A stretch of 32,011 nucleotides of DNA from a virus. Every line of letters starts with the position of its first letter. The first letter of the stretch is position 1. The stretch is from positions 1-32,011 of the IMG/VR virus record IMGVR_UViG_3300027771_000059, one strand, 5' to 3'. The notes beneath the pieces were generated by a model. It had not been told where the DNA came from and did no database searches. It was given only the letters and a program-made list of their open reading frames with translations. Below, one piece after another: positions 1 through 29,735 of this stretch. The position numbers and the translations under genes were made by a program.

Positions 1-135
1 ATTTACCAAAAAGGAACACCAGCAACAAAGTTTTTTGAAAAGCCTTTTAATGCTGCGTTTAAAAAGTTGCCAAATGAAATAGTGAAAGCGTACGGTTTGA
101 AAGTAGAAAATTTATTTAAAAATGTTTTAGCATGA
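1..135 (+). CDS. Partial gene, possible tail-completion/neck protein (C-terminal end)
   Basis: Only the last 44 residues are present, open from base 1 to the TGA at 133-135. They read as a short basic/hydrophobic tail ending in KVENLFKNVLA. The stop overlaps the ATG of the next gene (ATGA), the tight coupling expected inside a tail operon. Position before tail genes and the small helical C-terminus fit an HK97 gp10-like or tail-terminator protein, but the part seen is too short to prove it. The 5' part lies outside the window. Confidence 0.45.
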   Translation: MYQKGTPATKFFEKPFNAAFKKLPNEIVKAYGLKVENLFKNVLA

Positions 136-1199
136 TTTTAACAAAGTCACCTCATTATATTACCGTACCTTGGTTGTCTCCAAGTAGCGCAACAACGCCA
201 AGTAAATACGTTTTAAAAATTTACGTATGGAGTGGCTCAAAGTCTGCACCACCATCAACGGCGACTTATGAAGAGGAGAATTTAAACCCTTTGGGGCTTA
301 CTGGTTCGATTGATATAAATATCTCACCTTATGTAAATGACGTGTTAACTTTGTCATTAAATACGGCTACAAGTACAACTGTATTGTTTGGCGTATCTGC
401 TTTATGGGTAAAAACTGAGGTTATTTATTATCTTGGAACGGTTGCGCAACCTCCTGAATTTGTTTCTACAAGTTTAGCATCTGCGGGTTATGGTTACGGA
501 ATTGAGGGCAAGAATCCTACGGTACCATCAAATAATGTTCTCGCGAATGGTTCTATTGTAAACGTGTCTAAAAACTCTACTTTTACACTACCATTTTTAA
601 TTAGCGAGTCCGCAACAGTTACGACTACTGTTATTTCTTATCCATCAAATAATATCAATTATACGATAACAGCAGCAGCGACAAATCAGTCGTACCAATT
701 AATCCAAAAGGCGGTGGTCGTAGTATCGGAAGCGTTAACAGATACTTATATCGAAGTTAAGAGAGCAGGTGTTTTAATCCATACTTTAAACATTAAAGAA
801 GAGTTAAGGTACACACCATTTGATTGTTATTTTAAAAATAAGTTTGGGGTATTGCAAAGCATCACTTTCTTTAAGGAGAAAATAACATCTTTAAAAGTAA
901 ACTCAGAAACTTTTGAGAGTTCAAACGGACAAGCGGCAGATGGTGTACATCAAAACAGCGTCTACAATAAAAACGGTGTTACTTCATTTAAGGCGAAAAC
1001 AGGATTTATTTCAGAGACAAACAACGAGATAATTAAACAATTAATTTTATCAGAAAAGGTTTGGATTTTAGAGGGTATTGTGTTCAATCCTGTAAACGTT
1101 GCGAGTTCTTCCATCGAATATAAGAGCAGACAAAAAGACAGGCTTTTAGATTACGAAATAGATTTTACTTTTGCGTACAATGAAATAAATAATCAGTAA
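132..1199 (+). CDS. Phage tail structural protein (adaptor/baseplate-like), unrecognised family
   Basis: A 355-residue protein rich in Thr, Ser, Val and Asn with alternating short hydrophobic stretches, the look of an all-beta virion protein. No signal peptide, membrane segment or catalytic motif is visible. The C-terminal third (from about residue 225, with KFGVLQSITFFKEK) contains an aromatic 'FKNKFGVL..ITFFKEK' pattern that I associate with uncharacterised tail proteins of Bacteroidota phages; that recall is not a search result. It starts inside the stop of the preceding gene and its TAA is followed at once by the methyltransferase ATG, so the three are co-translated. A role near the tail tip is inferred from the tape measure and baseplate-like genes downstream. 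Confidence 0.6.
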   Translation: MILTKSPHYITVPWLSPSSATTPSKYVLKIYVWSGSKSAPPSTATYEEENLNPLGLTGSIDINISPYVNDVLTLSLNTATSTTVLFGVSALWVKTEVIYYLGTVAQPPEFVSTSLASAGYGYGIEGKNPTVPSNNVLANGSIVNVSKNSTFTLPFLISESATVTTTVISYPSNNINYTITAAATNQSYQLIQKAVVVVSEALTDTYIEVKRAGVLIHTLNIKEELRYTPFDCYFKNKFGVLQSITFFKEKITSLKVNSETFESSNGQAADGVHQNSVYNKNGVTSFKAKTGFISETNNEIIKQLILSEKVWILEGIVFNPVNVASSSIEYKSRQKDRLLDYEIDFTFAYNEINNQ

Positions 1200-1940
1200 A
1201 TGATAGATTTAAGAAAAGGAGATTGTTTGGAAATTATGAAGGGTATAGAGTCGGGTTCTATTGATGCAATAATTACAGACCCTCCATATGGAACAACTGC
1301 TTGTAAATGGGATAGTGTTATTGATTTTGAATTGATGTGGGAACAATTAAACAGGATTATAAAACCAAACGGTGCAATAGTATTATTTTCTGCTCAACCT
1401 TTTACAAGTGCATTAATTATGAGTAATATTAAGAATTATAAATATAACTGGGTTTGGGATAAAAAAAGCGCTACTGGCGGTCAGTTTGCAAGAAAGCAAC
1501 CAATGAGAAGAACAGAGGATATTTGTTTGTTCTACGGTAAGCAATGTATTTATAATCCACAATTAGAAGATAAAGAAAAAAAATATATTAGATATATTAA
1601 AAAAGATTATAAAAACAATAGTAAACATATATCTAATATTAAATCTTTTTCCACCAATGCAAATACAAGAACTATACCTGAGGATAAAAAATATCCTGCA
1701 AATATTATTTCCATAAGTAAAGGTAGTAATAAGAAGAAAGTACATCCAACTCAAAAACCTATTGCATTAATGGAATATCTAATAAATACATACACCAAAG
1801 AAAACGAAACCGTTTTAGATTTTACGATGGGTTCTGGAAGTACAGGAGTGGCGTCAAAGAATTTAAACAGAAACTTTATAGGAATAGAGCAAGACGAAAA
1901 CTATTTTAATATAGCAAAAGAACGTATAGGTAAATGGTAA
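1200..1940 (+). CDS. DNA methyltransferase, beta class (DPPY; probably N6-adenine)
   Basis: This 246-residue enzyme should transfer a methyl group from SAM to an exocyclic amino group of DNA. Motif IV is DPPY at residues 27-30, near the N-terminus, and the SAM-binding motif I is the DFTMGSGSTG stretch from residue 207 near the C-terminus. IV-before-I order is that of beta-class amino-methyltransferases. HPTQKP (182-187) before motif I is also typical of the family. DPPY favours N6-adenine, though N4-cytosine cannot be excluded. No separate target-recognition domain or nuclease partner is visible, so it is likely an orphan enzyme protecting phage DNA or marking it. It sits between two tail genes, abutting the gene before and overlapping the next by 7 bp, so it would be made late, with the virion proteins. 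Confidence 0.9.
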   Translation: MIDLRKGDCLEIMKGIESGSIDAIITDPPYGTTACKWDSVIDFELMWEQLNRIIKPNGAIVLFSAQPFTSALIMSNIKNYKYNWVWDKKSATGGQFARKQPMRRTEDICLFYGKQCIYNPQLEDKEKKYIRYIKKDYKNNSKHISNIKSFSTNANTRTIPEDKKYPANIISISKGSNKKKVHPTQKPIALMEYLINTYTKENETVLDFTMGSGSTGVASKNLNRNFIGIEQDENYFNIAKERIGKW

Positions 1941-4030
1941 CAGAAATTTATATTGGCACCAATAAACTAGATTTATTTAAAGATGACAGCATAGTTATCA
2001 AAAGTGCTGTTTCTAAGATTGAAGATATTACAAAAGTTTTTACAGATACTTCAAACGATTTTAGCGTCCCAGCGACAGACAATAATAACGCTACATTTAA
2101 ACATTATTACAATGCATCTGTAAACAATCCATTTGATGCGAGACAGTTAGTTTTAGGTGCGATATATTTGGGAGGTTTGCATCATAAAACGGTAAACTTT
2201 AGACTAAAGAAAGTTATAGTAAAAAATCAAAAAGCCGATAGTTACAGCTTAGAATTTTACGGACTTCTTACAAAATTAAAAGAACTTTTAAAAGACGACA
2301 AACTAAACGCAAAGGATGCGGACGGAAATTATAAATTAGATTTTTCTAGTCTTAACTATAATTTTACAGCAAACAATGTAATATCAAAATTAAATAATAA
2401 TTTCCCTGTTAAAGACATAGCGGCTACAATTCTAACAACAAAAAGGTACATTTACGACAGTAATCAAAATACAAATAATACTGATTCAATAAAGAATTTA
2501 GCGGAAAACAATAGCAGTACAAATAGCGGATTAGATTTTTATGATGTTAATAACTCGATATTAAATATTAGGATTATCGAAGCGATTGAAAGTGCTTACA
2601 ATTTAACGTTTAGCAGGGATTTTTTCGGAAAACAAGCCTTTTCAAGATTGTATCTCTTATTAAATGGTGGTAAGCCTTTTGCAGAATTCTTTGAGCAGAT
2701 GGTTATAACGTCATCTAATGACCCTACAAGAAGCGGAAATACTATTTTAAATAATGTTGTACTACAGAATCAAATAATTTTCTTAGATTTTGATTTAAAA
2801 GCTGGTATTTCTGATTTTGATATAATTGTAAAGTCAGGAAGTACCATTATATCTGAGTTGGTAAACCCAAGTAGGGAGGGAATATATTATAGCAGTTCGT
2901 CTTATAATTCTTTTACTAATTTAACTTTTTATGTTAGGTCGAGGTCTATAATATCTTATAGTGTAAGGATTGTAAGGGAGAACGGAAGTTTCTTAAACAG
3001 GACGACTAGTGTTGTTGCTGAAAGTGAAATATCAGGAGATTTTATCGTATCTGAAAAGTTACCTGATATTAAAATAATTGACTATTTAAAGGGATTGTTT
3101 CAAACTTTTAAATTAATTGTAATTCCTATAGATGAAAATAATTTATTTGTAGATTCGATAGAAAACTATTATAAGAGTGGTAAGACAAGGGAAATAACAA
3201 AATACATTGACTTCTCAAAAACACCCGTAAGTTCTGGAAAACTTTTAAACGAAATAGATTATAAGTTTCAAGAAAGTCAAACCATATTAGGGCAGCAATT
3301 TAAGTCTAATACAGGTTTAGATTATGGCAACTTAGAGTTATCTATAAGAGACAATAATGGTAAATTGATTGAAGGAGAAAAGAAAGTATTTGAAGTGCCT
3401 TTCGAAAATATGGTCTACGAAAAGTTGAGCGATGTTAGTGGAGAAGTAAACGTTAACATAATTTACGGATTAATGGCTAATAGTGCGCTAGAACCTGTAA
3501 CGATAAAACCACATTTACACTACATAAATCAAGTGTATTTAAGTTCTAGAATAAAGGTAATAAAGAGCAGCACGCAAGTAGCTTACATTAATTTATTAAA
3601 TATGCCAAGCCATACTTTAGGTTATGCCGCTCCACAATTTAGCACGGTGTTTGGTAAAGAATTTGATGAATATACAGGGGCAGAAATAACAAATACATTA
3701 TACACTAATTATCACAAGAATTATATTGATGAAAATTTTAATATAAAGAAAAGGAGTTATAATTTTAAGATAAAAAATGCATCAATAGATTTAATAAAGA
3801 ATTTAGAATTAAACGACATTTTAATAATTAAAGGTAAAACTTACAGAATTGACAGTTACGAAACTAATATAATAAAAAGAGAAATAAGTTTAAATTTAAT
3901 AAATTCAGTTAATCCAAGTCTTTCACCATTAGAATATTTGACAGCGGATTTAACGGAAGTTTATGCAAGTTCAGGACTATTAAACGATTTAACAACAGTA
4001 AATAAAGGGTACTCAGAAACACCAGTATAA
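1934..4030 (+). CDS. Large tail/baseplate structural protein
   Basis: At 698 residues this is one of the largest proteins here. The N-terminal region (about 1-130) has the pattern DD.IVIKSAVSKIEDI.KVFTD..NDFSVPAT, then a stretch ending YSLEFYGLLTKLKELLKDD; I associate this layout with tail-tip or baseplate proteins of Bacteroidota siphophages, although I cannot name a formal family. The middle and C-terminal parts are Asn/Ser/Ile-rich and beta-like, with no enzyme motif, signal peptide or membrane helix. Its ATG lies within the last codons of the methyltransferase gene (7-bp overlap), so translation is coupled. It could carry hub or distal-tail functions. Confidence 0.6.
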   Translation: MVTEIYIGTNKLDLFKDDSIVIKSAVSKIEDITKVFTDTSNDFSVPATDNNNATFKHYYNASVNNPFDARQLVLGAIYLGGLHHKTVNFRLKKVIVKNQKADSYSLEFYGLLTKLKELLKDDKLNAKDADGNYKLDFSSLNYNFTANNVISKLNNNFPVKDIAATILTTKRYIYDSNQNTNNTDSIKNLAENNSSTNSGLDFYDVNNSILNIRIIEAIESAYNLTFSRDFFGKQAFSRLYLLLNGGKPFAEFFEQMVITSSNDPTRSGNTILNNVVLQNQIIFLDFDLKAGISDFDIIVKSGSTIISELVNPSREGIYYSSSSYNSFTNLTFYVRSRSIISYSVRIVRENGSFLNRTTSVVAESEISGDFIVSEKLPDIKIIDYLKGLFQTFKLIVIPIDENNLFVDSIENYYKSGKTREITKYIDFSKTPVSSGKLLNEIDYKFQESQTILGQQFKSNTGLDYGNLELSIRDNNGKLIEGEKKVFEVPFENMVYEKLSDVSGEVNVNIIYGLMANSALEPVTIKPHLHYINQVYLSSRIKVIKSSTQVAYINLLNMPSHTLGYAAPQFSTVFGKEFDEYTGAEITNTLYTNYHKNYIDENFNIKKRSYNFKIKNASIDLIKNLELNDILIIKGKTYRIDSYETNIIKREISLNLINSVNPSLSPLEYLTADLTEVYASSGLLNDLTTVNKGYSETPV

Positions 4031-4034
4031 AAAT

Positions 4035-4622
4035 ATGGCACAACAAATTATAGACGTAGGAACATCAGCAGGAGCAGGCAATGGGGATATTATAAGAGCG
4101 GCATTTATAAAAGCGAACGAAAACTTTACAGATATTTACGGTTTTACGAACAAGGTAACAGGAGGCGCACAATACAAAGACAACGCATTGACCTCATTAT
4201 CTCCTTTAGCAGTCGTACAAGGGAGTAGGGCAGCAATTACAAACAATAGAAACGTAATAATCGACGTAAACATCCCTACAGATTTTACTTCTGGTATGTT
4301 AGATTCGTCGGGTAAGTTGTTAGCAGTAAATGCAAAGGATTATTTTTCTACTGAGATTAGATTCAAGGCAAAAAGTAGCGTTATTAGTGGAATTATGGGT
4401 ATACAGATAGATATAGGTGGGTCTTTAAATGTAATAAGAGAAGCACACATAAATTTACATAAAACAGCGAACACAGAAAGCACATTCGCTATTGTAATGA
4501 ACTACTTTACAGGCTCAACGTTTATCACTAATGGTGGTACTTTATATTTAAACGCAATCTCTGGAAATATAAGTTTGTATGATGTGGAGATCATTCCAAT
4601 GCGAGTACATAAAGGGTATTAA
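4035..4622 (+). CDS. Tail-tip/fibre-associated structural protein
   Basis: The 195-residue product begins with a pattern common at the N-terminus of phage tail-fibre and virion decoration proteins: a short polar lead, GNGDIIRAAFIKANENFTDIY (about residues 16-36 in pieces GDIIRAAF and KANENFTDIY). The rest is beta-rich, with repeated small residues and an amphipathic C-terminus ending PMRVHKGY. It follows the 698-residue baseplate-like gene by 4 bp and its stop abuts the ATG of the next small gene. I read it as a small tail-tip or fibre-attachment protein; receptor binding is possible but not shown by any motif. Confidence 0.55.
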   Translation: MAQQIIDVGTSAGAGNGDIIRAAFIKANENFTDIYGFTNKVTGGAQYKDNALTSLSPLAVVQGSRAAITNNRNVIIDVNIPTDFTSGMLDSSGKLLAVNAKDYFSTEIRFKAKSSVISGIMGIQIDIGGSLNVIREAHINLHKTANTESTFAIVMNYFTGSTFITNGGTLYLNAISGNISLYDVEIIPMRVHKGY

Positions 4623-4763
4623 ATGAAAGATATACTAGACTATTTAATCAACAACGATTTAAAAGGCGTGTCAAAAAGTATTGATATTGCTAAGGGAAAA
4701 TACGAATTAGTTACAGATTTTGCAGATATTAAAAACAAGATTATAAGATCATGGAAGAGGTAG
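4623..4763 (+). CDS. Small hypothetical protein (46 aa) before the tape measure gene
   Basis: A short ORF that starts directly after the stop of the previous gene (TAA then ATG) and runs 13 bp into the tape measure gene, so it is part of the same coupled reading chain. The product is 46 residues, mixed charge, with one likely helix (MKDILDYLINNDLKG) and a basic end (SWKR). In many siphophages a short gene precedes the tape measure as part of a frameshifted tail-assembly chaperone pair; here the ORF is separate and I see no obvious slippery sequence, so chaperone function is only a positional guess. Confidence 0.6.
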   Translation: MKDILDYLINNDLKGVSKSIDIAKGKYELVTDFADIKNKIIRSWKR

Positions 4764-6730
4764 TACTTAAAATAGATTTAGATGCTGAAAAAGCGGAAAA
4801 GAATGTAAAAAGCTTAACAAATACGTTCGAACAATTAAAAAAGAAATCCGTAGAAGTTGAAGAAGAATTAAAGAAAACAACAGACCCAGATAAAGTAGTT
4901 TTTCTAAAGAAACAATTAAAAGGACTTAATGAGGAATTAGGAAAAACAGGAACAACCACAGAAAAAGCTGGTAAAAAAGGAAAAAAAGGCGTCGGTTTGT
5001 TGTCTAAGGGTTTTAAAATGTTAGGCACTTCAATGAAAGCCGCTGGAATTGGTTTAATAGTTTCTTTAGTTGTTGGTTTAGGCGCAGCATTTACAAAAAA
5101 TCAGAGGTTTGTCGATGCATTTAGTACAGTAATGGAAACTATCGGAATTGTTTTTAGTCAAGTGGCAACAGCTTTATTTGATGTGTACGATAATGTATCT
5201 AAATCTTCGGAGAATTTTGATGCACTTGGAAAGGTTTTAAAAGGCTTAGTTACAATCGGATTAACACCTCTAAAACTTTCTTTTTTTAATATTAAATTAG
5301 CCTTACAATCTGCACAATTAGTTTGGGAAAAGTCTTTTTTTGGAGGCAACGATAAAAAGAAAATAACTGATTTAATAGTAGGGATCACAGAAACAAAAAC
5401 CGCAATTTTTGACACAGGAAAAGCGGCAGTAGATGCAGGTAAAGATATTGTAACTAATTTTGGTGAGGCTATTACAGAGACCGCAAATATTGCAAGTCAA
5501 GTAGTTAAGAAAGTAGGAGATATAAGTGTAGATGCCGCCATAAAGACAGCGAAAACAAATGTGCAAATAAAAAATAGTGCTTTATTAGCGGTTGCAGAAC
5601 AAGGACGTTTATTAGAAACCTATGATAGATTAGCAGAAAAACAAAGACAAATAAGAGACGACGAAAGTAAATCAATTACAGAGAGACAAATCGCTAACGA
5701 TAAATTAGGCGAGGTTTTAAAGTTACAAGAAAAAGCACAAATAAGACAGGCGGATTTGCAAATCGCAGCAGCACAAGCGGACGCAAATAAGAATAATAAT
5801 ATAGAAGCACAGGTCGCACTAGTCGAAGCCTTAGCAAATAGAGAGGGCGTACTCGCAGCGATAACAGGATTTCAAAGTGAACAAGATGTAAACAGGATTG
5901 CATTAAAAAAGGAGGAAATAGAACTAAATCAAACTATTACTGACGCAGAAAAAGAAAGACGCTTGGCTCAATTAGAATTTGAAGAAAGCCAAACTTTAGA
6001 CCCTTTATTAAAATTAGAAAAAGAAAAAGAAAGATTAGAACTAGAAAATAAAATAATTGCAGACGACTTAGAGCGTAAAAAAGAACTATTTGCAGAAGGT
6101 ACTCAATCTAGAGTTGATGCGGAACAATTATTTTTAACAGAAAAACAGCGTATAGATAATGAAATTTCTATAAACGAAAAAGCGCAAGTATTAGAAAGGT
6201 TTAATTATGAAAAAGAACTAGAAAACGCAAAGAAAAATCTTAAAGAAAACACATTAAGTTTAATCGGTAATTTAGCCGCAAAAGGCAGCGCAGTTGCAAA
6301 GGCTCTGGCAATTCGTGAGATAGTAATGGAGCAGCAGAAGAGTATTGCGGCAACCATATCAGCAACAACAATCGCAAATGCTAAGGCGGTTGCAGCTTCA
6401 CCACTTACAGGAGGTCAGCCATTCGTGGCAATTAACACAATACAAGCAGGTATTGGTATAGCGTCAGGATTAGCACAGGCGGTAAAATCCATAGGTGCGA
6501 TAAATAGTAACAGTAATTCCCCTTCTGGCGGTAGTAGTGGCGGTGGTGGTGGTTCACGTGGCGGTCAATCTGCACCATCATTCAACCTAGTACAAGGAAC
6601 TGACTCCAACCAAATAGCGCAAAGTATTAACGGACAAAATAACCAACCTGTAGAGGCTTATGTAGTAAGTGGTACAATGACAACACAGCAAGAAGCAGAT
6701 AGGAACAAACAGGATACTGGAAGCATTTAA
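4751..6730 (+). CDS. Tail tape measure protein
   Basis: A 659-residue protein that sets tail length and is ejected with the DNA. Residues 1-75 form a charged coiled coil (KAEKNVKSLTNTFEQLKKK), then comes a hydrophobic region at about 85-115 (KAAGIGLIVSLVVGLGAAF) followed by NQRFVDAFSTVMETIG, a layout typical of Bacteroidota phage tape measures. Residues 280-500 are a long Gln/Glu/Lys-rich coiled coil. A second small-residue hydrophobic part precedes a Gly/Ser-rich linker near 600-620. Using the usual rule of about 0.15 nm per residue, it predicts a tail near 100 nm and hence a siphovirus-like virion. A hairpin terminator follows 39 bp after the stop, closing the tail operon. Confidence 0.85.
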   Translation: MEEVVLKIDLDAEKAEKNVKSLTNTFEQLKKKSVEVEEELKKTTDPDKVVFLKKQLKGLNEELGKTGTTTEKAGKKGKKGVGLLSKGFKMLGTSMKAAGIGLIVSLVVGLGAAFTKNQRFVDAFSTVMETIGIVFSQVATALFDVYDNVSKSSENFDALGKVLKGLVTIGLTPLKLSFFNIKLALQSAQLVWEKSFFGGNDKKKITDLIVGITETKTAIFDTGKAAVDAGKDIVTNFGEAITETANIASQVVKKVGDISVDAAIKTAKTNVQIKNSALLAVAEQGRLLETYDRLAEKQRQIRDDESKSITERQIANDKLGEVLKLQEKAQIRQADLQIAAAQADANKNNNIEAQVALVEALANREGVLAAITGFQSEQDVNRIALKKEEIELNQTITDAEKERRLAQLEFEESQTLDPLLKLEKEKERLELENKIIADDLERKKELFAEGTQSRVDAEQLFLTEKQRIDNEISINEKAQVLERFNYEKELENAKKNLKENTLSLIGNLAAKGSAVAKALAIREIVMEQQKSIAATISATTIANAKAVAASPLTGGQPFVAINTIQAGIGIASGLAQAVKSIGAINSNSNSPSGGSSGGGGGSRGGQSAPSFNLVQGTDSNQIAQSINGQNNQPVEAYVVSGTMTTQQEADRNKQDTGSI

Positions 6731-9746: not shown

Positions 9747-10259
9747 ATGGCAGATATAGCAGCAGGAAGGTTAAGAACAGATGACAATTTACAAGGGGGT
9801 GTTGAGGAAATTTATTTCTTTAATTACGTAGCAGGCGCATTCACCGTTACGGCAAATGTAGCAACAGCGATAGACTCAGGCTTAACAGCAGTCTACAAGT
9901 ACGAAATTCAAGGAGACGGTAACACGTTTACAGAATCTAACGTAGTAGATAAAAAGACAGGAACAAGTGTAAACACGCAGACATTAGTGGCGCAATTAAA
10001 ACAAGTTAACTCTGCAACAAACGTAGAATTAGATAAGTTATTGCAAGGTAGAAACTCAGCAGTCTACAAAGATTCTAACGATCAGTACCGTTGGATTGCT
10101 TTAAAAGGGTTTAATGTTACATCGACAGGTGAATTAGTAACAGGTGGAGCAAAAGCAGATTTTAACGGTTATAACGTGACACTAGTAGCAGAGCAAAAGG
10201 GATATTCTCCAAGTTTGGACGCTTCGACAGTGACCGCATTACTAGCATTAGTAGCATAA
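9747..10259 (+). CDS. Virion structural protein (170 aa), paralogue of the protein at 14783
   Basis: An Ala/Thr/Val-rich protein without membrane or signal segments. It shares a frame of motifs with the 177-residue protein at 14783-15316: an N-terminal QGG(V/S)E followed by an aromatic strand, a central Lys-Asp-(Ser/Asn) Asp/Gly-Gln/Asn stretch, and a C-terminal TGG..ADFNGYN. The shared ends suggest one fold duplicated. Size, position after the capsid gene and beta-rich composition fit a capsid decoration, head-completion or tail-tube protein; I cannot choose. It is expressed only through the upstream attenuator, and a strong bidirectional terminator follows. Confidence 0.65.
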   Translation: MADIAAGRLRTDDNLQGGVEEIYFFNYVAGAFTVTANVATAIDSGLTAVYKYEIQGDGNTFTESNVVDKKTGTSVNTQTLVAQLKQVNSATNVELDKLLQGRNSAVYKDSNDQYRWIALKGFNVTSTGELVTGGAKADFNGYNVTLVAEQKGYSPSLDASTVTALLALVA

Positions 10260-10311: not shown

Positions 10312-10359
10312 TAACTTAATATAAAAAGCATTAAAACGGTTTTTATACCTTTGTTAGGC
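10312..10359 (-). repeat. attC-like hairpin 1 (after the 72-aa gene)
   Basis: TAAC (10312-10315) pairs with GTTA (10353-10356); TATAAAAA (10320-10327) pairs with TTTTTATA (10340-10347). Minus strand: TAAC, 4 nt, GTATAA ... TTATAT, 3 nt, GTTA. The outer box extends to GTTAGGC (10353-10359), a full match to the attC R-box consensus. Very similar to the site at 20127-20171. Confidence 0.6.
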
Positions 10360-10667
10360 ACAACTAATAAAAAAGCCGCCAATATTGTGGGATTCTCATC
10401 ATGCTGTTCTAAAATAAATTCTTTCTATAAAATTTAAATCATTTTTTAATTTATTTTTTAACTGTTTTATTTCGTAAAAAATTGATGCATCATTTCCTGT
10501 ACAAAAAATATTATCTCGATTGTTAACGCTATTTAAAGAAATTTTACTTTCAAGTTTTTTTACTTTTTCAGAATGATCTTTAATAATTAATCTTCTTTCT
10601 TCGTGTATTGTTTTCATAATTTAAGGGTTTGGCGTTCGCCACGGCTTTTTTATTAGCAGTGCCTAAC
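10353..10667. repeat. 26-bp inverted repeat flanking the 72-aa gene
   Basis: The left copy at 10353-10378 and the right copy at 10642-10667 are inverted and match at 24 of 26 positions. Each begins at its outer end with GTTAGGCAC and ends at the inside with AAAAAAGCCG. The unit is 315 bp and contains only the 72-residue gene. The outer 7 bp of each copy are also the R boxes of attC-like sites 1 and 6. A 12-bp palindrome TGGCGTTCGCCA (10630-10641) adjoins the right copy. Confidence 0.8.
10399..10617 (-). CDS. Small cassette gene, helical protein (72 aa)
   Basis: The 72-residue product is basic and probably one long helix or coiled coil: an N-terminal KTIHEERRLIIKDHSEKVKKLE, then a second charged helix (YEIKQLKNKLKNDL). 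Residues cover the whole ORF from ATG in AAATTATG to a TGA. Function unknown; small helical proteins of this kind can be antirepressors, DNA-binding or inhibitor proteins, but no family is recognised. It is the only gene between two attC-like sites and inside a 26-bp inverted repeat, so it looks like a self-contained cassette. No promoter of its own is visible. Confidence 0.6.
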   Translation of the reverse strand: MKTIHEERRLIIKDHSEKVKKLESKISLNSVNNRDNIFCTGNDASIFYEIKQLKNKLKNDLNFIERIYFRTA

Positions 10668-10789
10668 AAAATATAAAACTAATTGCTAGTTACTAATTAT
10701 TAAAGTTGGTTATATCATTCATTAAGTGTATTAATAGTTATTAATGCTTGGTTATTCATACAAGCAACAATTTTTATACCCTCAAGTTA
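10664..10789 (-). repeat. attC-like hairpin 6 (long form)
   Basis: TAAC (10664-10667) with GTTA (10786-10789); TATAAAA (10672-10678) with TTTTATA (10772-10778); ATTG (10682-10685) with CAAT (10768-10771). Minus strand: TAAC, 6 nt, GTATAA ... TTATAT, 3 nt, GTTAGGC. At 126 bp it has the same size and spacer as the sites at 12005 and 20765. Confidence 0.5.
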
Positions 10790-10891
10790 TAATTAATGTT
10801 TGTTTTAAGCATAGTTAATATATGTTTTTGCATATAATATTGGTTATTACCATCATTTTATATGTATAAGCATACAAAAAAAAACTAATAA
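10790..10891. other. AT-rich gap inside the cassette array
   Basis: About 100 bp between two attC-like sites with no ORF on either strand. It could be the remnant of a lost cassette. Nothing else is seen. Confidence 0.4.
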
Positions 10892-10939
10892 TAACAACGT
10901 ATAAAGTGCATTGAAACGCACCTTATACAATGCGTTAGC
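10892..10939 (-). repeat. attC-like hairpin 2 (after the adenine methyltransferase)
   Basis: TAAC (10892-10895) with GTTA (10934-10937); GTATAA (10899-10904) with TTATAC (10923-10928); GTGC (10906-10909) with GCAC (10918-10921), separated by a single A/C mismatch. Spacers are 3 and 5 nt. The stop codon of the methyltransferase gene is the TAA of the TAAC box, as is common where cassette genes end in their attC site. Confidence 0.65.
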
Positions 10940-11663
10940 CACAATACACAAATAGCTTCTCGGTACTTAATTTATTGCCTCCGCTTTTTCCGTTTGCACT
11001 TAAGCTACTTTTAGTTTCTTTTTCCCAAACACATTTAAAGTCTTCAGGTGCTTTATACTCACTTACAAATACTTTATGTCCTTGCTTTGTTTTTAATCTT
11101 ACCCATTCCCAAAACTCAATATGGTTAAACTCTTCCCTATCGTTATAACTTGTTGTTCCTTTGTATGGTGGGTCACAATAAATTAAACTATTGTCGGGTA
11201 TTTCTAAGTCATTATATTTTAAGTTGCTAAACTCAACACCGTTTAACTTTGGTACTTGTTTCAATATATTTCTCAACGCTTCTGCTTGGTAGTTTCTTTT
11301 TACTCCTGTTTTAGTATTAACCACACCAGCGCAGCCACCGTTAAAATAATCACCACTAAAAGAGCATCCAAAACCTACCCAACCTAAGTAATCGCTTTTA
11401 TAATCACTTTTGTTATCTCTTATTTTTTTGTAATCATCTTTAGTTATAAAAAAGTCAGGCTTAAACCCCTTGTAAACAAAACTTTTCCACATCTCTATTA
11501 ATTCAAAATGCAAATCGTTTGCAAGTCTTTTACCCGTCACTTTATCAATCATATTCATACCACCTGCAAAAGGTTCAATGTACCATTGCTCAGGTGTTCT
11601 ATCTTTTAATATTATAGGTAACAATTCTTTTGCAAACCTATTTTTACTTCCTATGTATTTCAT
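10935..11663 (-). CDS. DNA adenine methyltransferase, D12 class (Dam-like), in a cassette
   Basis: A 242-residue enzyme expected to methylate adenine N6 using SAM. The N-terminal KYIGSKNR corresponds to the FxGxK start of the D12 family, motif I is EPFAGGMNM (residues 30-38), and catalytic motif IV is CDPPYKGTTSY with DPPY at 164-167, giving alpha-class order. Length is normal for Dam-type enzymes. No restriction partner is encoded, so protection against host restriction or epigenetic signalling is likely; specificity (GATC or other) cannot be read. It runs against the phage late genes, ends within an attC-like site, follows another such site, and has no promoter of its own: all signs of a cassette acquired separately from the phage backbone. 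Confidence 0.92.
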   Translation of the reverse strand: MKYIGSKNRFAKELLPIILKDRTPEQWYIEPFAGGMNMIDKVTGKRLANDLHFELIEMWKSFVYKGFKPDFFITKDDYKKIRDNKSDYKSDYLGWVGFGCSFSGDYFNGGCAGVVNTKTGVKRNYQAEALRNILKQVPKLNGVEFSNLKYNDLEIPDNSLIYCDPPYKGTTSYNDREEFNHIEFWEWVRLKTKQGHKVFVSEYKAPEDFKCVWEKETKSSLSANGKSGGNKLSTEKLFVYCG

Positions 11664-11697
11664 AATATATTTATTTTAATTCGTTAATAGTACTGTG

Positions 11698-11749
11698 GCT
11701 AACAATGTATATAAGCCATAAAAAAACGGCTCATATACTAACCGTTAGC
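11698..11749 (-). repeat. attC-like hairpin 3 (best formed)
   Basis: GCTAAC (11698-11703) with GTTAGC (11744-11749), GTATAT (11707-11712) with ATATAC (11733-11738), AGCC (11714-11717) with GGCT (11728-11731). Spacers are 3 and 5 nt, with one unpaired base on each side between the inner boxes and a 10-nt loop. This is the attC plan of two paired box sets with asymmetric spacers. Confidence 0.7.
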
Positions 11750-11754
11750 ATTAA

Positions 11755-11991
11755 TTATCCCATCCAATGTTCGCCAAAAGTATGTCCATCATAAGTTGAA
11801 GGTTCACTATATTTTTGGTTACTTGACTTAAAGTCATCCCATTCTCGCCAACCCTTACCGTATTTTAAATTTATTTCTTGTCTTGCGGTTTCTACAGCAA
11901 CATTTTCTTTTTTTTTAGAAGTACATACTTTTAACTTTTGCTTAATTAAAATAGCGAGTTCTTTTCTTATTGCTTTTGTGCTTTTTTCCAT
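11755..11991 (-). CDS. Cassette gene, small basic protein (78 aa)
   Basis: The product starts with a Lys-rich helix (MEKSTKAIRKELAILIKQKL) and ends in a Trp- and Gly-containing tail (KYGKGWREWDDFKSSNQKYS... EHWMG). No known domain is recognised. The ATG follows closely after the GTTAGAATTAG end of an attC-like site, and the TAA lies a few bases before the next site, so the gene fills one cassette almost exactly. It would be the first gene read from the TAnnTTTG promoter at 12131-12161. Confidence 0.6.
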   Translation of the reverse strand: MEKSTKAIRKELAILIKQKLKVCTSKKKENVAVETARQEINLKYGKGWREWDDFKSSNQKYSEPSTYDGHTFGEHWMG

Positions 11992-12004
11992 AATTAACTA
12001 ATTC

Positions 12005-12126
12005 TAACAATGTATAAAAAACACACTTTGTCAGTCTTTATTTAAAGGTTATTACTATTTATTTACTTTGTGTTTAATAAAATATTTTCGCTTCTTAAAA
12101 CGTGCGTTGTTTATACTTAGCAGTTA
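12005..12126 (-). repeat. attC-like hairpin 5 (long form, head of the array)
   Basis: TAAC (12005-12008) with GTTA (12123-12126); GTATAAA (12012-12018) with TTTATAC (12110-12116); AAC (12020-12022) with GTT (12106-12108); CAC (12024-12026) with GTG (12102-12104). Spacers are 3 and 6 nt. Total 122 bp. The predicted start of transcription from the adjoining minus promoter falls at its outer edge. Confidence 0.6.
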
Positions 12127-14289: not shown

Positions 14290-14783
14290 TGGAAACAGTA
14301 CTATTCGCAAGTCCGCAAGAAATAACCATCTCTACTATAGTAGGGGGAAATGTCGATGTTGACAAATACAATATGCATATTTCAGACACTCAGGTATTCA
14401 CAATTAAACCACTACTAGGTAGTTTACTTTATGATAAAATTGTGGCTGATGTAGTTGCAGATACGTTAACAGGTCTTTATTTGGAGCTGGTAAACAACTA
14501 TGTAAAGCCTATAACAAAATATAAATCTGTTTCGACGTTTGTGGCTCTAAATTCTTACTCACTTAATAACGCTGGCTTATTTAAGAACACACCTAAAGAC
14601 GTACAGGTAGTATCTGACCGAGCAACCGAAAACATTTCAGACCGTTATAGCTCAATGGCGCAGATGTATGTAACAAACTTTTATGCATGGATATCTCTAA
14701 ATAAACTAGAAGAATATAAAGAAGATCAAAACGGAATAAAACCCGTAACGATTAACATTAACAACGGTTGGAGATATAGCTAA
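14289..14783 (+). CDS. Head-tail connector protein, DUF6712-like
   Basis: The 164-residue protein has the layout of DUF6712: an N-terminal segment with one helix set (NVDVDKYNMHISDTQ, then KPLLGSLLYDKI), a long central helix (LYLELVNNYVKPITKYKS), a small-residue loop, and a final helix (MYVTNFYAWISLNKLEEY). Such proteins sit between portal and tail as adaptors. Position between portal and a structural paralogue supports this. ATG overlaps the portal stop by one base, and the stop overlaps the next start by one base. No odd composition. Confidence 0.7.
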   Translation: METVLFASPQEITISTIVGGNVDVDKYNMHISDTQVFTIKPLLGSLLYDKIVADVVADTLTGLYLELVNNYVKPITKYKSVSTFVALNSYSLNNAGLFKNTPKDVQVVSDRATENISDRYSSMAQMYVTNFYAWISLNKLEEYKEDQNGIKPVTININNGWRYS

Positions 14784-15316
14784 TGGATTATTCAAGAGCA
14801 ATACAAAACGACAACAGCCAAGGAGGTTCTGAAGTGCTTTATATTTTCCCATTTGTGGAATATAGTAGTTCGCAGATAACCGTGATTAATAACTTTTTAA
14901 CTGTATTTCCATACAATATTATCTATAATTTAGAAGCGTTTAAAATAAATTTTGATGAAGAGGTATCTGAATTTTACGAGCAAAAATGTACTTTTCAGGT
15001 TAAAAAGATTTTAGCAATTGATAAATTTAAGGAATACGCTCAGCAAGATTATAGAATTATTTTAAAAGACAACAACGGCAATTTAAGAATGTTAGGATTA
15101 CATACAGGTGTTCAAGGTAAATTTACAAAATCAACAGGCGGTAATTTGGCAGATTTTAACGGATATAATTTTAATTATGACACCAAAGAAGAAGATACAG
15201 CACCTTTTTTAACAGATTTAAGTTTGTTTAATATAATGCCTTTGAATGGGCTAAATCTACAAGATGGTAACGGTAATTTAATACAAGATAATAACGGTAA
15301 TTTAATAGTAAATTAA
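14783..15316 (+). CDS. Virion structural protein (177 aa), paralogue of the protein at 9747
   Basis: Residues 1-150 follow the 170-residue protein at 9747: SQGGSEVLYIF at the start, then a strand-rich middle (YEQKCTFQVKKILAIDKF), RIILKDNNGNLRMLGLHTG, and TGGNLADFNGYNF near the end. The last 25 residues carry a short tandem repeat of the form LQDGNGNLI, IQDNNGNLI. The protein has no membrane segment. Two divergent members of one structural family in separate operons suggests two rings or a tube and a decoration protein of the same fold. The start codon overlaps the stop of the connector gene. Confidence 0.65.
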   Translation: MDYSRAIQNDNSQGGSEVLYIFPFVEYSSSQITVINNFLTVFPYNIIYNLEAFKINFDEEVSEFYEQKCTFQVKKILAIDKFKEYAQQDYRIILKDNNGNLRMLGLHTGVQGKFTKSTGGNLADFNGYNFNYDTKEEDTAPFLTDLSLFNIMPLNGLNLQDGNGNLIQDNNGNLIVN

Positions 15317-19691: not shown

Positions 19692-20129
19692 AATAAATCT
19701 TACATTTTTTTATTATTATTTTTTTTTGTTGGTTGTGTGGCTAAAAAATCTACTGTCGAATATAAAGAGCGCATTGCACGAGACACATCGAGCGTGCAAA
19801 CGGTTAAGACCATAATTAAGCCAGTAAAAGAGTACTTGATAGTAGACAACCCTTGCGATGGTTTAGGCTTGTTAAAGTCGTTTGAAAAGACTATTAAAAC
19901 AGAGAAAGCAACGGTTAAATTATACAATGATAAAGGCAGTATTAAAGTTGATATAAATATAGATAGTATTGTAGATTTAGAGGTAAATAAATTTAAAAGA
20001 AATTACAAATCAGAAGTAGAAATAAAAAAGGTAACAGTGGTTAAATTCCGTTACCCCTTGTGGCTTATTATTGGTTTTGGTATTTCTATATTTCTGAACG
20101 TAATTTTATTAAAGTCTAAGTTATTTTAA
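19680..20129 (+). CDS. Candidate unimolecular spanin (lipoprotein with C-terminal membrane helix)
   Basis: 149 residues. The N-terminus is a lipoprotein signal (basic start, hydrophobic run, lipobox FVGC with Cys19), and a second hydrophobic segment at about 126-146 (PLWLIIGFGISIFLNVILL) lies at the C-terminus. The part between is periplasmic and charged (SFEKTIKTEKATVKLYNDKG). A lipoprotein anchored in the outer membrane at one end and in the inner membrane at the other is the plan of u-spanins, which fuse the two membranes in lysis of Gram-negative hosts. It follows the endolysin gene, the expected place. Its stop lies within attC-like site 4. I infer function from topology, not from homology. 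Confidence 0.65.
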   Translation: MRLQNKSYIFLLLFFFVGCVAKKSTVEYKERIARDTSSVQTVKTIIKPVKEYLIVDNPCDGLGLLKSFEKTIKTEKATVKLYNDKGSIKVDINIDSIVDLEVNKFKRNYKSEVEIKKVTVVKFRYPLWLIIGFGISIFLNVILLKSKLF

Positions 20130-20173
20130 CTTTGTATAAAAAACATTAAAACGTTCTTTATACCTTTGTTAGC
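20127..20173 (-). repeat. attC-like hairpin 4 (second locus)
   Basis: TAAC (20127-20130) with GTTA (20168-20171); GTATAAA (20134-20140) with TTTATAC (20157-20163); AAC (20142-20144) with GTT (20053-type partner at 20153-20155). Spacers are 3 and 4 nt, total 45 bp. Close in sequence to site 1. The TAA stop of the 120-residue gene is the TAA of its TAAC box. Confidence 0.6.
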
Positions 20174-20531
20174 AATCATTCCTCAAGAACGCTCCTACTT
20201 GTTTAACGAAATCTCGGTGGCAATTCCAACACAATCTGTAATCACTTTCTTTTCGGCTCTCTATAAATACCTTTTGGTATCCACTACCTTCCTTTATTGC
20301 AGGGTGGCTAAATCCTATCTTTTCATCTCTTCCAAATAGAGCCTCTGTACTGCAACAATCAATACCTATTTCCAACTTAATATGACAAGCACTTTCTTCC
20401 CATCGAGTTAAAAGCGATTTGCCACACTTCGAGCAACAAGAACGATTGATAACACGAGATAAACGTAATTGCTCTATTTCGTGCTGTTTAATAATGTTCT
20501 GTGCTTTTTCTAATTCTTTATTTGTTATCAT
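20169..20531 (-). CDS. Zinc-ribbon-like protein (120 aa), cassette gene
   Basis: An N-terminal helix (LEKAQNIIKQHEIEQLRLSR) is followed by CCSKCGK (about residues 32-38), CH and CC around 49-60, and a final CWNCH motif. Cys pairs spaced CxxC suggest one zinc-binding ribbon. No enzymatic motif is recognised. It stands between the 79-residue gene and attC-like site 4 in minus orientation, and its TAA lies in the site's TAAC box. Role unknown. Confidence 0.65.
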   Translation of the reverse strand: MITNKELEKAQNIIKQHEIEQLRLSRVINRSCCSKCGKSLLTRWEESACHIKLEIGIDCCSTEALFGRDEKIGFSHPAIKEGSGYQKVFIESRKESDYRLCWNCHRDFVKQVGAFLRNDC

Positions 20532-20584
20532 AATTTCTTCTTTTAAGTTCGCAACTACGCTTATTTAAACCGTTGTAAGTAATG

Positions 20585-20824
20585 CTAAATATTTAGCTGT
20601 TCTACACACCACGCTCGGCTTTTTTTATCAATCCAAATACTTCTACAGTTTAAATGGTTTATTTCATCTCCGTGTATATTTCTGGCAAATGTAAAGCCTC
20701 TCTTTTTTGCTTCTTTAATATCAATACTTATAAATAATTGTCTGTACTTATCTCTCACTACAAACAACAATGTATAAAAAAAATTGCTACTTTCTACATT
20801 TTTATAATCTAATTCTTTAAACAT
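20585..20824 (-). CDS. Hypothetical protein (79 aa), start uncertain
   Basis: The ORF begins MFKELDYKNVESSNFFYTLL in the usual TAAATTATG context and ends RAWCVEQLNI. The last 45 residues are charged with conserved-looking Trp and Cys, but no family is recognised. Its first 20 or so codons overlap attC-like site 7 (20765-20889), so either the site is coding DNA or the true start is a later GTG. If the cassette reading is right, the second option is expected. Confidence 0.45.
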   Translation of the reverse strand: MFKELDYKNVESSNFFYTLLFVVRDKYRQLFISIDIKEAKKRGFTFARNIHGDEINHLNCRSIWIDKKSRAWCVEQLNI

Positions 20825-20889
20825 AATTTATTATTTTATTTATTAATTTCATTGTAATTAGACGCAACATTTCTTATACAAATAAGTTA
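20765..20889 (-). repeat. attC-like hairpin 7 (long form)
   Basis: CAAC (20765-20768) with GTTA (20886-20889); GTATAA (20772-20777) with TTATAC (20874-20879); AAAT (20781-20784) with ATTT (20869-20872); TGC (20785-20787) with GCA (20864-20866). Spacers are 3 and 6 nt, total 125 bp, like sites 5 and 6. The TAA of the 55-residue gene is in its TAAC. It overlaps the annotated start of the 79-residue ORF. Confidence 0.45.
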
Positions 20890-25248: not shown

Positions 25249-25632
25249 ATGAGGAAATTAAATAAAGAACAAGTAGACAATGTAAGTGGTGGTATTTTAA
25301 CAGGTTTTGAGTTCCTCCACTATTTAGAAGAATGTGTACGTTTAGGAGTTTTTGAACCAGCAGCGTTAAAAAGAGTAAAGGCGACAATTAAACATCTACA
25401 ATTTATTGAAGAACACTTTTACAACCAAGTGGAAGAAATGGACGAGGAAAATATTAGTGATAAATTAATGTCGAATAAATTAGATTATGTAAAATGGATG
25501 TTAGACGAATTCCCTCACAGCCAATACGCAAAATTACAAGAGGTAAACATTGCTTTTAGTTTGGACGCTCGTAGGCTTTGCGGAATCTCTGACAAAATAC
25601 ACTTAGAAAATAACGCAATTAAAATATTATGA
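25249..25632 (+). CDS. Hypothetical early protein (127 aa)
   Basis: A soluble helical protein: an N-terminal KLNKEQVDNVSGGILTG, a middle CVRLGVFEPAALKRVKATI and a charged helix (FIEEHFYNQVEEMDEE). The first 16 residues resemble a double-glycine leader of peptide bacteriocins by chance or descent, but the remaining 110 residues are not a bacteriocin core. It starts 1 bp after the DnaA-like gene and overlaps the methyltransferase by 4 bp, so it is an ordinary member of the early operon. Function unknown. Confidence 0.55.
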   Translation: MRKLNKEQVDNVSGGILTGFEFLHYLEECVRLGVFEPAALKRVKATIKHLQFIEEHFYNQVEEMDEENISDKLMSNKLDYVKWMLDEFPHSQYAKLQEVNIAFSLDARRLCGISDKIHLENNAIKIL

Positions 25633-26270
25633 TAAACATTACAAACGAAGACAATATGCTTTTAATGGCAAGATATCCAGATAATCATTTCGATTTAGCA
25701 ATAGTTGACCCACCTTATGGGATTGATATTTCTAAAACAGGAAATGTAGGTGGTAATAATTTAGGTAAGACAAAGGATTACGGGAAAAAAGAATGGGATT
25801 CTGTTATACCTACCGCAGGTTATTTTAAAGAACTAAAAAGAGTAAGTAAAAATCAAATTATTTTTGGTGGAAACTATATGATTGAGCATTTAGAAAACAC
25901 GCCTTGTTTTTTGATATGGGATAAAAATAATAGTGGCAATTTTGCAGATGCAGAATTGGCTTGGACTTCTTTTCAAACTGCTACAAGGATTTTTAAATCT
26001 ACTTGGAATGGAATGTTACAACACGATATGAAGAACAAAGAAATAAGAATACATCCAACGCAAAAACCTGTAAGATTGTATGAATGGATTTTAGATAATT
26101 ATACAGAAAAAGGGTTTAAAGTTTTAGATACTCATTTAGGAAGTGGTAGTATTGCTTTAGCGTGCCATAATAGAGAGTTTGATTTAACCGCTTGCGAATT
26201 AGATAAAGATTACTATATTGCAGCGATGAAAAGATTAAAAATACACCAACAACAATTAACAATGTTTTAA
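25629..26270 (+). CDS. DNA adenine methyltransferase, beta class (DPPY)
   Basis: A 213-residue amino-methyltransferase. DPPY is at residues 27-30, HPTQKP at 142-147, and the SAM-binding motif I VLDTHLGSGS from 165. The IV-before-I order is beta class. It is short and has no separate recognition domain. It shares the plan, but not close sequence, with the tail-module enzyme at 1200, so the two probably have different targets or timing (early here, late there). It abuts the ninG gene (stop then ATG). Role: modify phage DNA against host restriction, or influence replication. Confidence 0.9.
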   Translation: MINITNEDNMLLMARYPDNHFDLAIVDPPYGIDISKTGNVGGNNLGKTKDYGKKEWDSVIPTAGYFKELKRVSKNQIIFGGNYMIEHLENTPCFLIWDKNNSGNFADAELAWTSFQTATRIFKSTWNGMLQHDMKNKEIRIHPTQKPVRLYEWILDNYTEKGFKVLDTHLGSGSIALACHNREFDLTACELDKDYYIAAMKRLKIHQQQLTMF

Positions 26271-28661: not shown

Positions 28662-29735
28662 ATGAAAAATACAAAACATAAATTTCCGTATAAATGGACT
28701 TTAAAAGATGCAAATTTTACAAAAGATAAAGGGACTGTATTTAGTTGCTTTGCTTGTGGAGGTGGTTCTACTATGGGTTATAAGTTAGCAGGGTTTGACG
28801 TGATAGGATGCAATGAGATAGACCCTAAAATGATGGACGCTTACAGGACTAACCATAAACCAAAGTTATCTTATTTAGAACCAATACAAACTTTTAAACT
28901 AAGAAAAGATTTACCAAAAGAACTTTATAATTTAGATGTTTTGGATGGTTCGCCCCCTTGCAGCAGTTTCTCAATGTCTGGGAATAGAGAAAAAGATTGG
29001 GGAAAAGAAAAAAAGTTTAGAGAAGGACAAGCAGAACAAGTTTTAGATAATCTATTTTTTGATTTTATAGATTTAGCAAAAGAATTACAACCTAAAGTAG
29101 TTGTTGCTGAAAACGTAAAAGGATTACTACAAGGTGATGCAAAAGAATATGTAAGAAATATTTATATAGATTTTGATAAGGCTGGTTATTACTGCCAACA
29201 CTTTCTTTTGAATGCTTCTAAAATGGGTGTACCTCAAAGACGTGAAAGGGTGTTTTTTGTTTGTTTACGTAAAGATTTAGCAAAAGATTTTTTATATTTT
29301 AAAGATATGTTTACTGAATTACCAAAAATTGAAATGGGATTTAATGAGCCATTAATAACATATAAAGAAATAAGACAATTAAAAGGAAATGAAAGTGCTG
29401 AGGGGCTTTCTCCAATGATTAAAAAATTTTGGTTGTTATGTAAAGCTGGTGATGCTTTTAGTAGTATACACCCTAAAGGAAGTTATTTTAATGAAATAAA
29501 AACACATCCAGACAAAGTATTACCTACTATTAGAGCAAATGGATTACCTTATGATTATGAGTTTGAAAGAACTTTGTATAATGATGAATGTAAAAAAGCA
29601 GGGAGTTACCCCTCAGATTATAATTTTGTGTCTAACAAGCCGGTTTATTTAATAGGAATGAGTGTACCACCTGTAATGACTGCACAGGTAGCAAGCAGAA
29701 TATATGAACAATGGTTAGTTAATATAAAAGTATAA
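28662..29735 (+). CDS. dcm: DNA cytosine-C5 methyltransferase
   Basis: A 357-residue Dcm-type enzyme that makes 5-methylcytosine. Motif I is FSCFACGGGSTMGY (from 27), IV is GSPPCSSFSMSG with catalytic C100, VI is ENV (150-152) and VIII is QRRERVFF (192-199). The variable region with the target-recognition domain spans about 205-310, and the C-terminal GMSVPPVMTAQVAS helix closes the fold. The length is normal. It has its own TAnnTTTG box. No nuclease gene accompanies it. It could protect phage DNA or modify host genes; its target, which could include CCGG, cannot be read from sequence. The symbol marks family type only. Confidence 0.92.
   Translation: MKNTKHKFPYKWTLKDANFTKDKGTVFSCFACGGGSTMGYKLAGFDVIGCNEIDPKMMDAYRTNHKPKLSYLEPIQTFKLRKDLPKELYNLDVLDGSPPCSSFSMSGNREKDWGKEKKFREGQAEQVLDNLFFDFIDLAKELQPKVVVAENVKGLLQGDAKEYVRNIYIDFDKAGYYCQHFLLNASKMGVPQRRERVFFVCLRKDLAKDFLYFKDMFTELPKIEMGFNEPLITYKEIRQLKGNESAEGLSPMIKKFWLLCKAGDAFSSIHPKGSYFNEIKTHPDKVLPTIRANGLPYDYEFERTLYNDECKKAGSYPSDYNFVSNKPVYLIGMSVPPVMTAQVASRIYEQWLVNIKV

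Follow-up and report, generated by a model that had tools for sequence, protein, structure and literature searches.

The window (the whole stretch of DNA that was analysed, 32,011 bp) is a linear virus record from a phage of marine Flavobacteria-type bacteria, and, judged by the portal protein, the isolated phage nearest to it is Nonlabens phage P12024S, at 33% amino acid identity. The virion-gene (head-gene) region contains an array of five attC-like sites at 12126-10312, all on the minus strand, that bound four cassettes. A Bacteroidetes-type promoter (TTTG-N20-TATCTTTG, minus strand, 12162-12131) reads into the array from directly before the first site, as the first-pass annotation of this DNA had proposed. 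Continuing along the minus strand, the array consists of a long site of 122 nt (S1, 12126-12005), a gene for a 78-aa protein without a family match in Pfam or PHROG (11991-11755), a short site of 48 nt (S2, 11747-11700), a gene for a 242-aa D12-class adenine DNA methyltransferase (11663-10935; Pfam PF02086, MethyltransfD12, E 1.1e-16; PHROG 56, 1.5e-40), a short site of 46 nt (S3, 10937-10892), a cassette interval without an ORF (10891-10790), a second long site of 126 nt (S4, 10789-10664), a gene for a 72-aa protein without a family match above cut-off (10617-10399), and a final short site of 45 nt with a 4-nt left spacer (S5, 10356-10312). The methyltransferase stop codon is the TAA of a TAAC box, and a terminator-like hairpin lies 3' of S5, where the array ends. 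Three more methyltransferase-like genes, recognized by sequence motifs only, lie outside the arrays (1200-1940, 25629-26270 and 28662-29735), and PHROG family 19091 occurs twice, at 9747-10259 and 14783-15316, flanking the portal gene on either side.

The first-pass annotation had placed five hairpins at these positions and described them all by a single rule of boxes and spacers. Scans with the rule and for pairing arms recovered the five sites, all on the minus strand; the rule itself holds less strictly than claimed, in that S2 deviates from it by one base, but its matches go well beyond chance: the window has six, each of them on the minus strand, whereas dinucleotide shuffles of the whole window would give 0.005. 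The two length forms (short sites of 45, 46 and 48 nt, long sites of 122 and 126 nt) and the 3-nt spacer on the R' side, present in five of five sites, are as that annotation had them. The core boxes TAAC and GTTR occur in all window sites, while the outer positions are partly off the consensus RYYYAAC / GTTRRRY. A cassette array is expected to have at least two co-oriented attC sites over a few kb; the window has five in 1.8 kb, all on the minus strand, plus two at 20127-20889.

These last two sites form a second array (20889-20127), missed in the earlier inventory, which accounts for two of the six rule matches and lies beside an exonuclease gene. Its features are also on the minus strand: a long site of 125 nt (20889-20765), found by both the rule and arm scans and poorly scored by the covariance model described below, overlaps the start of a 79-aa ORF (20824-20585) whose true start may be downstream of the site, and is followed by a 120-aa ORF (20531-20169) and a short site of 45 nt with a 4-nt left spacer (20171-20127) that is 89% identical to S5. 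The sole other IMG/VR copy of the 120-aa ORF that was found is from the same virus. A contig carrying a site identical to 20171-20127 (L087) first looked, with L299, like a separate virus sharing an identical cassette; it proved to be the same virus (100% identity over 8720 bp) and was excluded as evidence of exchange.

Several lines of evidence argue that the sites form a real family. A short-site pattern (GTATAA..CGTTTTAATG..TTATAY-N3-GTTA) used to search IMG/VR contigs gave at least 118 matching stretches, and the sites are co-oriented within contigs; a site scanner run on 205 kb of shuffled sequence found none. Many different viral contigs carry near-identical copies of S2 or S3, e.g. S2 in L069, L071 and L074, and S3 in L054 (identical over 48 nt) and in L016, L057 and L135 (98%). 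In the site alignment, 9 of 14 predicted pairs are changed on both sides. The window sites were scored with models built in this analysis. A scan of Rfam at a permissive threshold returned nothing relevant. The covariance model R1 was trained on 39 external short sites, taken from other contigs only and with sites near-identical to those of the window excluded. On the minus strand of the window it scores S3 at 56.4 bits, the 20171-20127 site at 53.0, S2 at 51.8, S5 at 44.4 and the long site S1 at 22.1, and the next match, at 20 bits, is the opposite strand of one of these same five sites. S4 and the long site at 20889 score poorly (S4 at 10.7 bits over 10661-10727), and this weighs somewhat against the interpretation favored below. 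When folded as single strands, the short sites that were tested (gene strand) are more stable than shuffled sequences; the arms of the long sites do pair, yet their overall folding is no better than that of shuffles.

A unit can circularize through its site only if its two inner ends are complementary to each other. The own-end pairing of the four units is 12, 13, 11 and 12 of 14 positions (11 for the interval without an ORF), no other combination of ends exceeds 10, and about 0.6% of random GTTR/TAAC pairs score at least 11. The pairing is longer, 26-29 nt, for two of the units; the ends of the cassette with the 72-aa gene (10350-10378 and 10642-10670) pair over 29 nt. Ends that are mutually complementary in this way would allow each unit to close to a circle in which a full site is re-formed. 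The same property is found in viral and chromosomal arrays at large, and, read from the sequence, the own-end pairing is the signature of excisable circles.

The comparison with related phages that the first-pass annotation had suggested did reveal different cargo at the position of the array. Five relatives have the flanking gene at 84-85% amino acid identity. Three of these (L008, L009 and L012) have retained the flanks together with the promoter region, and in them the locus holds one HNH-type gene and no sites; two others (L010 and L011) have different cassettes followed by a homologous last site, 85% identical to S5. Another contig, L074, has the S2-like site and the methyltransferase start in common with the window as one block. 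Relatives that carry the same genes without hairpins, or with hairpins that do not exchange, were sought as a counterexample and were not found. The near-identical copies of S2 and S3 in many viral contigs, together with the differing content of the relatives, suggest that exchange at the locus may still be going on. No convincing array is seen at the locus in more distant portal relatives (L282-L298), which is absence rather than exchange. The HNH-like gene of L008 (7565-8416) has many lysine-rich repeats and an HNH-like end. Homologues of the cassette methyltransferase (53-55% amino acid identity) were also found in five Winogradskyella species (L022-L026) and were considered as cassette relatives; they are chromosomal, and in L022, the one read in detail, the gene lies between two transporter-like genes with no adjacent site.

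The existence of such arrays in phages is not new. The first-pass annotation had taken integrons to be only chromosomal or plasmid-borne, a view already superseded by a published set of 17 attC clusters without an integrase (CALINs) in phages, including one with two methyltransferases in Polaribacter phage P12002L (Qi 2023, PMC9892861). Recombination of phage sites by IntI1 is known as well, and includes that of the P12002L attC2 site in the laboratory, on the bottom strand only; the attC directions in this phage are described as divergent, and homologous or illegitimate recombination was proposed as the route by which CALINs enter phages (PMC9892861). The P12002L cluster resembles the window array in being an integrase-less attC cluster with methyltransferase cargo and the same gene-to-site direction, and its sites belong to the same family, two of them (in L007) scoring 41 and 54 bits with R1, although both are in the R1 training set. 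The window array differs from it: it belongs to another phage, is located among the head genes, has four cassettes and is accompanied by a second array. It works like a CALIN and not like a complete integron, and it is a variant in gene direction.

Sites of this family are also present on flavobacterial chromosomes, as the first-pass annotation had anticipated, but the recombinase gene beside them is not of the expected kind. R1 finds matches in 16 of 196 Flavobacteriales genomes and 31 of 395 Bacteroidia genomes, and in several of the best chromosomal matches the arrays adjoin a gene for a recombinase of 366-376 aa. A profile search for this recombinase followed by a site scan yielded 46 loci, and the 3' side has sites in most of those with enough sequence. 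The full-length recombinase loci have no sites on the 5' side, and their 3'-side sites are all of one polarity; 5'-side sites number only four, all at core-only relatives of the recombinase. Three of the loci with core-only relatives (L266, L267 and L276) hold all of these 5'-side sites, which are mostly reversed and may belong to neighboring elements. The recombinase core is nearest to XerA (PDB 4a8e, 217 bits; 5hxy, 193 bits; NCBIfam NF040815, 218-237 bits), and the protein differs from XerA-type recombinases in having an N-terminal extension of about 85-105 aa and in adjoining cassette arrays. Residues 181-239 of IntI (PDB 2a3v), which hold the integron-specific patch, have almost no counterpart in it, and integron-integrase models score it at 201-228 against a cut-off of 265. 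Complete integrons have been regarded as rare in Bacteroidetes, a single case, from Salinibacter ruber, being named by IntegronFinder 2.0 (PMC9024848). A search with TIGR02249 at E<=1e-60, run with no positive control, had no match in any of 396 Flavobacteriales genomes, and the site model was preferred as the marker.

This patch-less Xer-like recombinase, judged by its gene neighborhood, is the likely mover of the cassettes, and such a cassette system with its atypical recombinase seems to be common in Flavobacteriales, with its sites common in phages. No tyrosine recombinase was noted among the window ORFs, part of which were covered by family scans, and among 50 site-bearing viral records eight have a TIGR02249 match at E<=1e-5, none of them over the cut-off. 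The earlier statement that the array lacks an integrase and would depend on a host integron holds in its first half; its second half needs amending, as the host system differs from a textbook integron. Since the 32-kb linear record may be incomplete, a phage-encoded recombinase elsewhere in the genome is also possible. With regard to an attI, four chromosomal loci have plain junctions ahead of their first site, and none was identified in the window.

The sites have a polarity that allows gene direction to be compared between the two kinds of arrays. The left spacer is 4-6 nt and the right spacer 2-4 nt (3 nt in all window sites), and the strand read in this way folds better in 127 of 144 viral and 145 of 165 chromosomal long sites. 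All 142 of 142 non-redundant cassettes of viral contigs have the gene on the site strand, whereas in Flavobacteriales chromosomes it lies on the opposite strand in 96 of 98, and in a class-wide sample in 12 of 12. Isolated phages are likewise parallel (P12002L, Tenacibaculum phage JQ and Cellulophaga phi17:1), and phage JQ has six sites with two methyltransferases. The trait of chromosomal arrays, a gene followed by its site with the gene opposite the stably folding strand, is absent from the phage arrays. In the viral arrays, lone plain junctions are found beyond the last site in 21 cases and upstream in 11, several of the latter resembling half sites; the junctions beyond the last site are suggestive of cutting on the same side in the phage and chromosomal kinds. 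An L-box-like motif at the lone junctions was set aside as chosen after the data were seen. A phage cassette is most likely a site followed by a gene, the mirror image of the chromosomal gene followed by a site. Since moving a cassette into an array of the other kind would leave its gene antisense, the phage pool would be kept apart from the chromosomal pool.

In the comparison with IntI integrons (class 1, Vibrio), the likenesses include cassettes bounded by hairpin sites, G/TT cores, own-end complementarity, and chromosomal arrays that adjoin a tyrosine recombinase; the differences are that the phage window has no integrase, the chromosomal partner has no IntI patch region, and the phage genes are inverted. 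Read in gene direction, the spacers are 5 and 6 nt in a class 1 site of the aadA7 type, about 3 and 5-6 nt in chromosomal Flavobacteriales sites, and 4-6 and 3 nt in phage sites, so that the class 1 site resembles the chromosomal direction. The main text of PMC9892861 has no mention of an inversion across phages or of a Bacteroidota recombinase, and in the literature covered, which leaves aside preprints and most subscription journals, the patch-less system and the inversion are nowhere described; both appear to be new.

The cargo of the two kinds of arrays also differs. Among the 149 phage cassette proteins, DNA methyltransferase families account for 16 matches and Mom for 4. SUKH-type proteins are the commonest among 96 chromosomal cassette proteins, which also include peptidases and one each of Fic, CDI-immunity and restriction-type proteins, and DNA methyltransferases are absent from the 25 families listed for this set. 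In one viral contig (L017, IMGVR_UViG_3300020017_000211, 1-5470) there are seven sites; four of its methyltransferase-like genes have a site at either end, and a fifth lies 3' of the last site. Judging from gene direction and cargo, phages seem to keep their own, inverted pool of counter-defence cassettes.

The locus is best accounted for as an integrase-less integron-type cassette array of the gene-inverted variety that would be moved by a host recombinase, an explanation that is quite probable. A host recombinase would excise and insert cassettes at the sites as folded single strands during infection, the phage promoter at 12162-12131 would transcribe any inserted cassette, and selection would retain genes that help the phage, in this case a DNA methyltransferase that could protect phage DNA from restriction. 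Both ends of the first array are whole sites with no plain junction, and the founding insertion is not readable, which counts to some extent against this model. A broader proposal, which we hold to be reasonably probable though with less confidence, is that Bacteroidota have a widespread integron-like system with a patch-less Xer-type recombinase, and that phages share its machinery while keeping an inverted pool for swapping counter-defence genes such as methyltransferases and Mom. The first-pass interpretation of an integrase-less integron-type array in a virion-gene region is retained here, and its ideas of novelty in phages and of a host integron of the usual type are not; nor is the array a sample of a host array. 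An ordinary CALIN, in other words a now inert fragment of a host's chromosomal integron acquired through homologous or illegitimate recombination, would fit the published phage CALINs, for which just such an entry route was proposed (PMC9892861), as well as the lack of a noted integrase in the window and the sites of the same family on chromosomes. The opposite gene direction in 142 of 142 viral cassettes and the different cargo argue that phage arrays are not random pieces of chromosomal arrays. The near-identical copies of S2 and S3 in many viral contigs and the varying locus content among relatives are further evidence against inertness, and this explanation is unlikely.

Mechanisms unrelated to cassette recombination fare less well. 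The HNH-type gene that occupies the locus without any sites in L008, L009 and L012 could be taken to mean that homing endonucleases or general phage mosaicism drive the exchange, with the sites as passengers; the regular sites, their own-end pairing and the near-identical sites in many contigs would then be left unexplained, and the idea is very improbable. Regulatory or terminator-like hairpins between small accessory genes might well share one orientation and an intergenic position, and the terminator-like hairpin after S5 and the unexceptional stability of the long sites are in keeping with such a role. It is nonetheless extremely unlikely that the hairpins are of this kind, given the own-end pairing of every unit, the conservation of core boxes that are unpaired, the recombinase adjoining the chromosomal sites, and the experimental recombination of a phage site of the same family (PMC9892861). 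If phages do borrow the cassette system for anti-restriction genes, the host-recombinase model would provide a concrete mechanism for site-specific shuffling of counter-defence functions. The strictly opposite gene direction has to be accounted for by any model of traffic between integrons and phages.

Short sites with a 4-nt left spacer, such as S5 and the 20171-20127 site, tend to be the last in their array (11 of 20, against 62 of 267 for the others, p 0.006, in viral loci L032-L148 with redundant loci removed), which hints that this kind of site might be an attI-like anchor, or attachment point, in phages. Cellulophaga phage phi17:1 (L281) has exact duplicates of a short site with a 4-nt left spacer, at 1516-1561 and 2490-2535, each 3' of a long site, and phi19:1 has a site nearly the same as this duplicated one.
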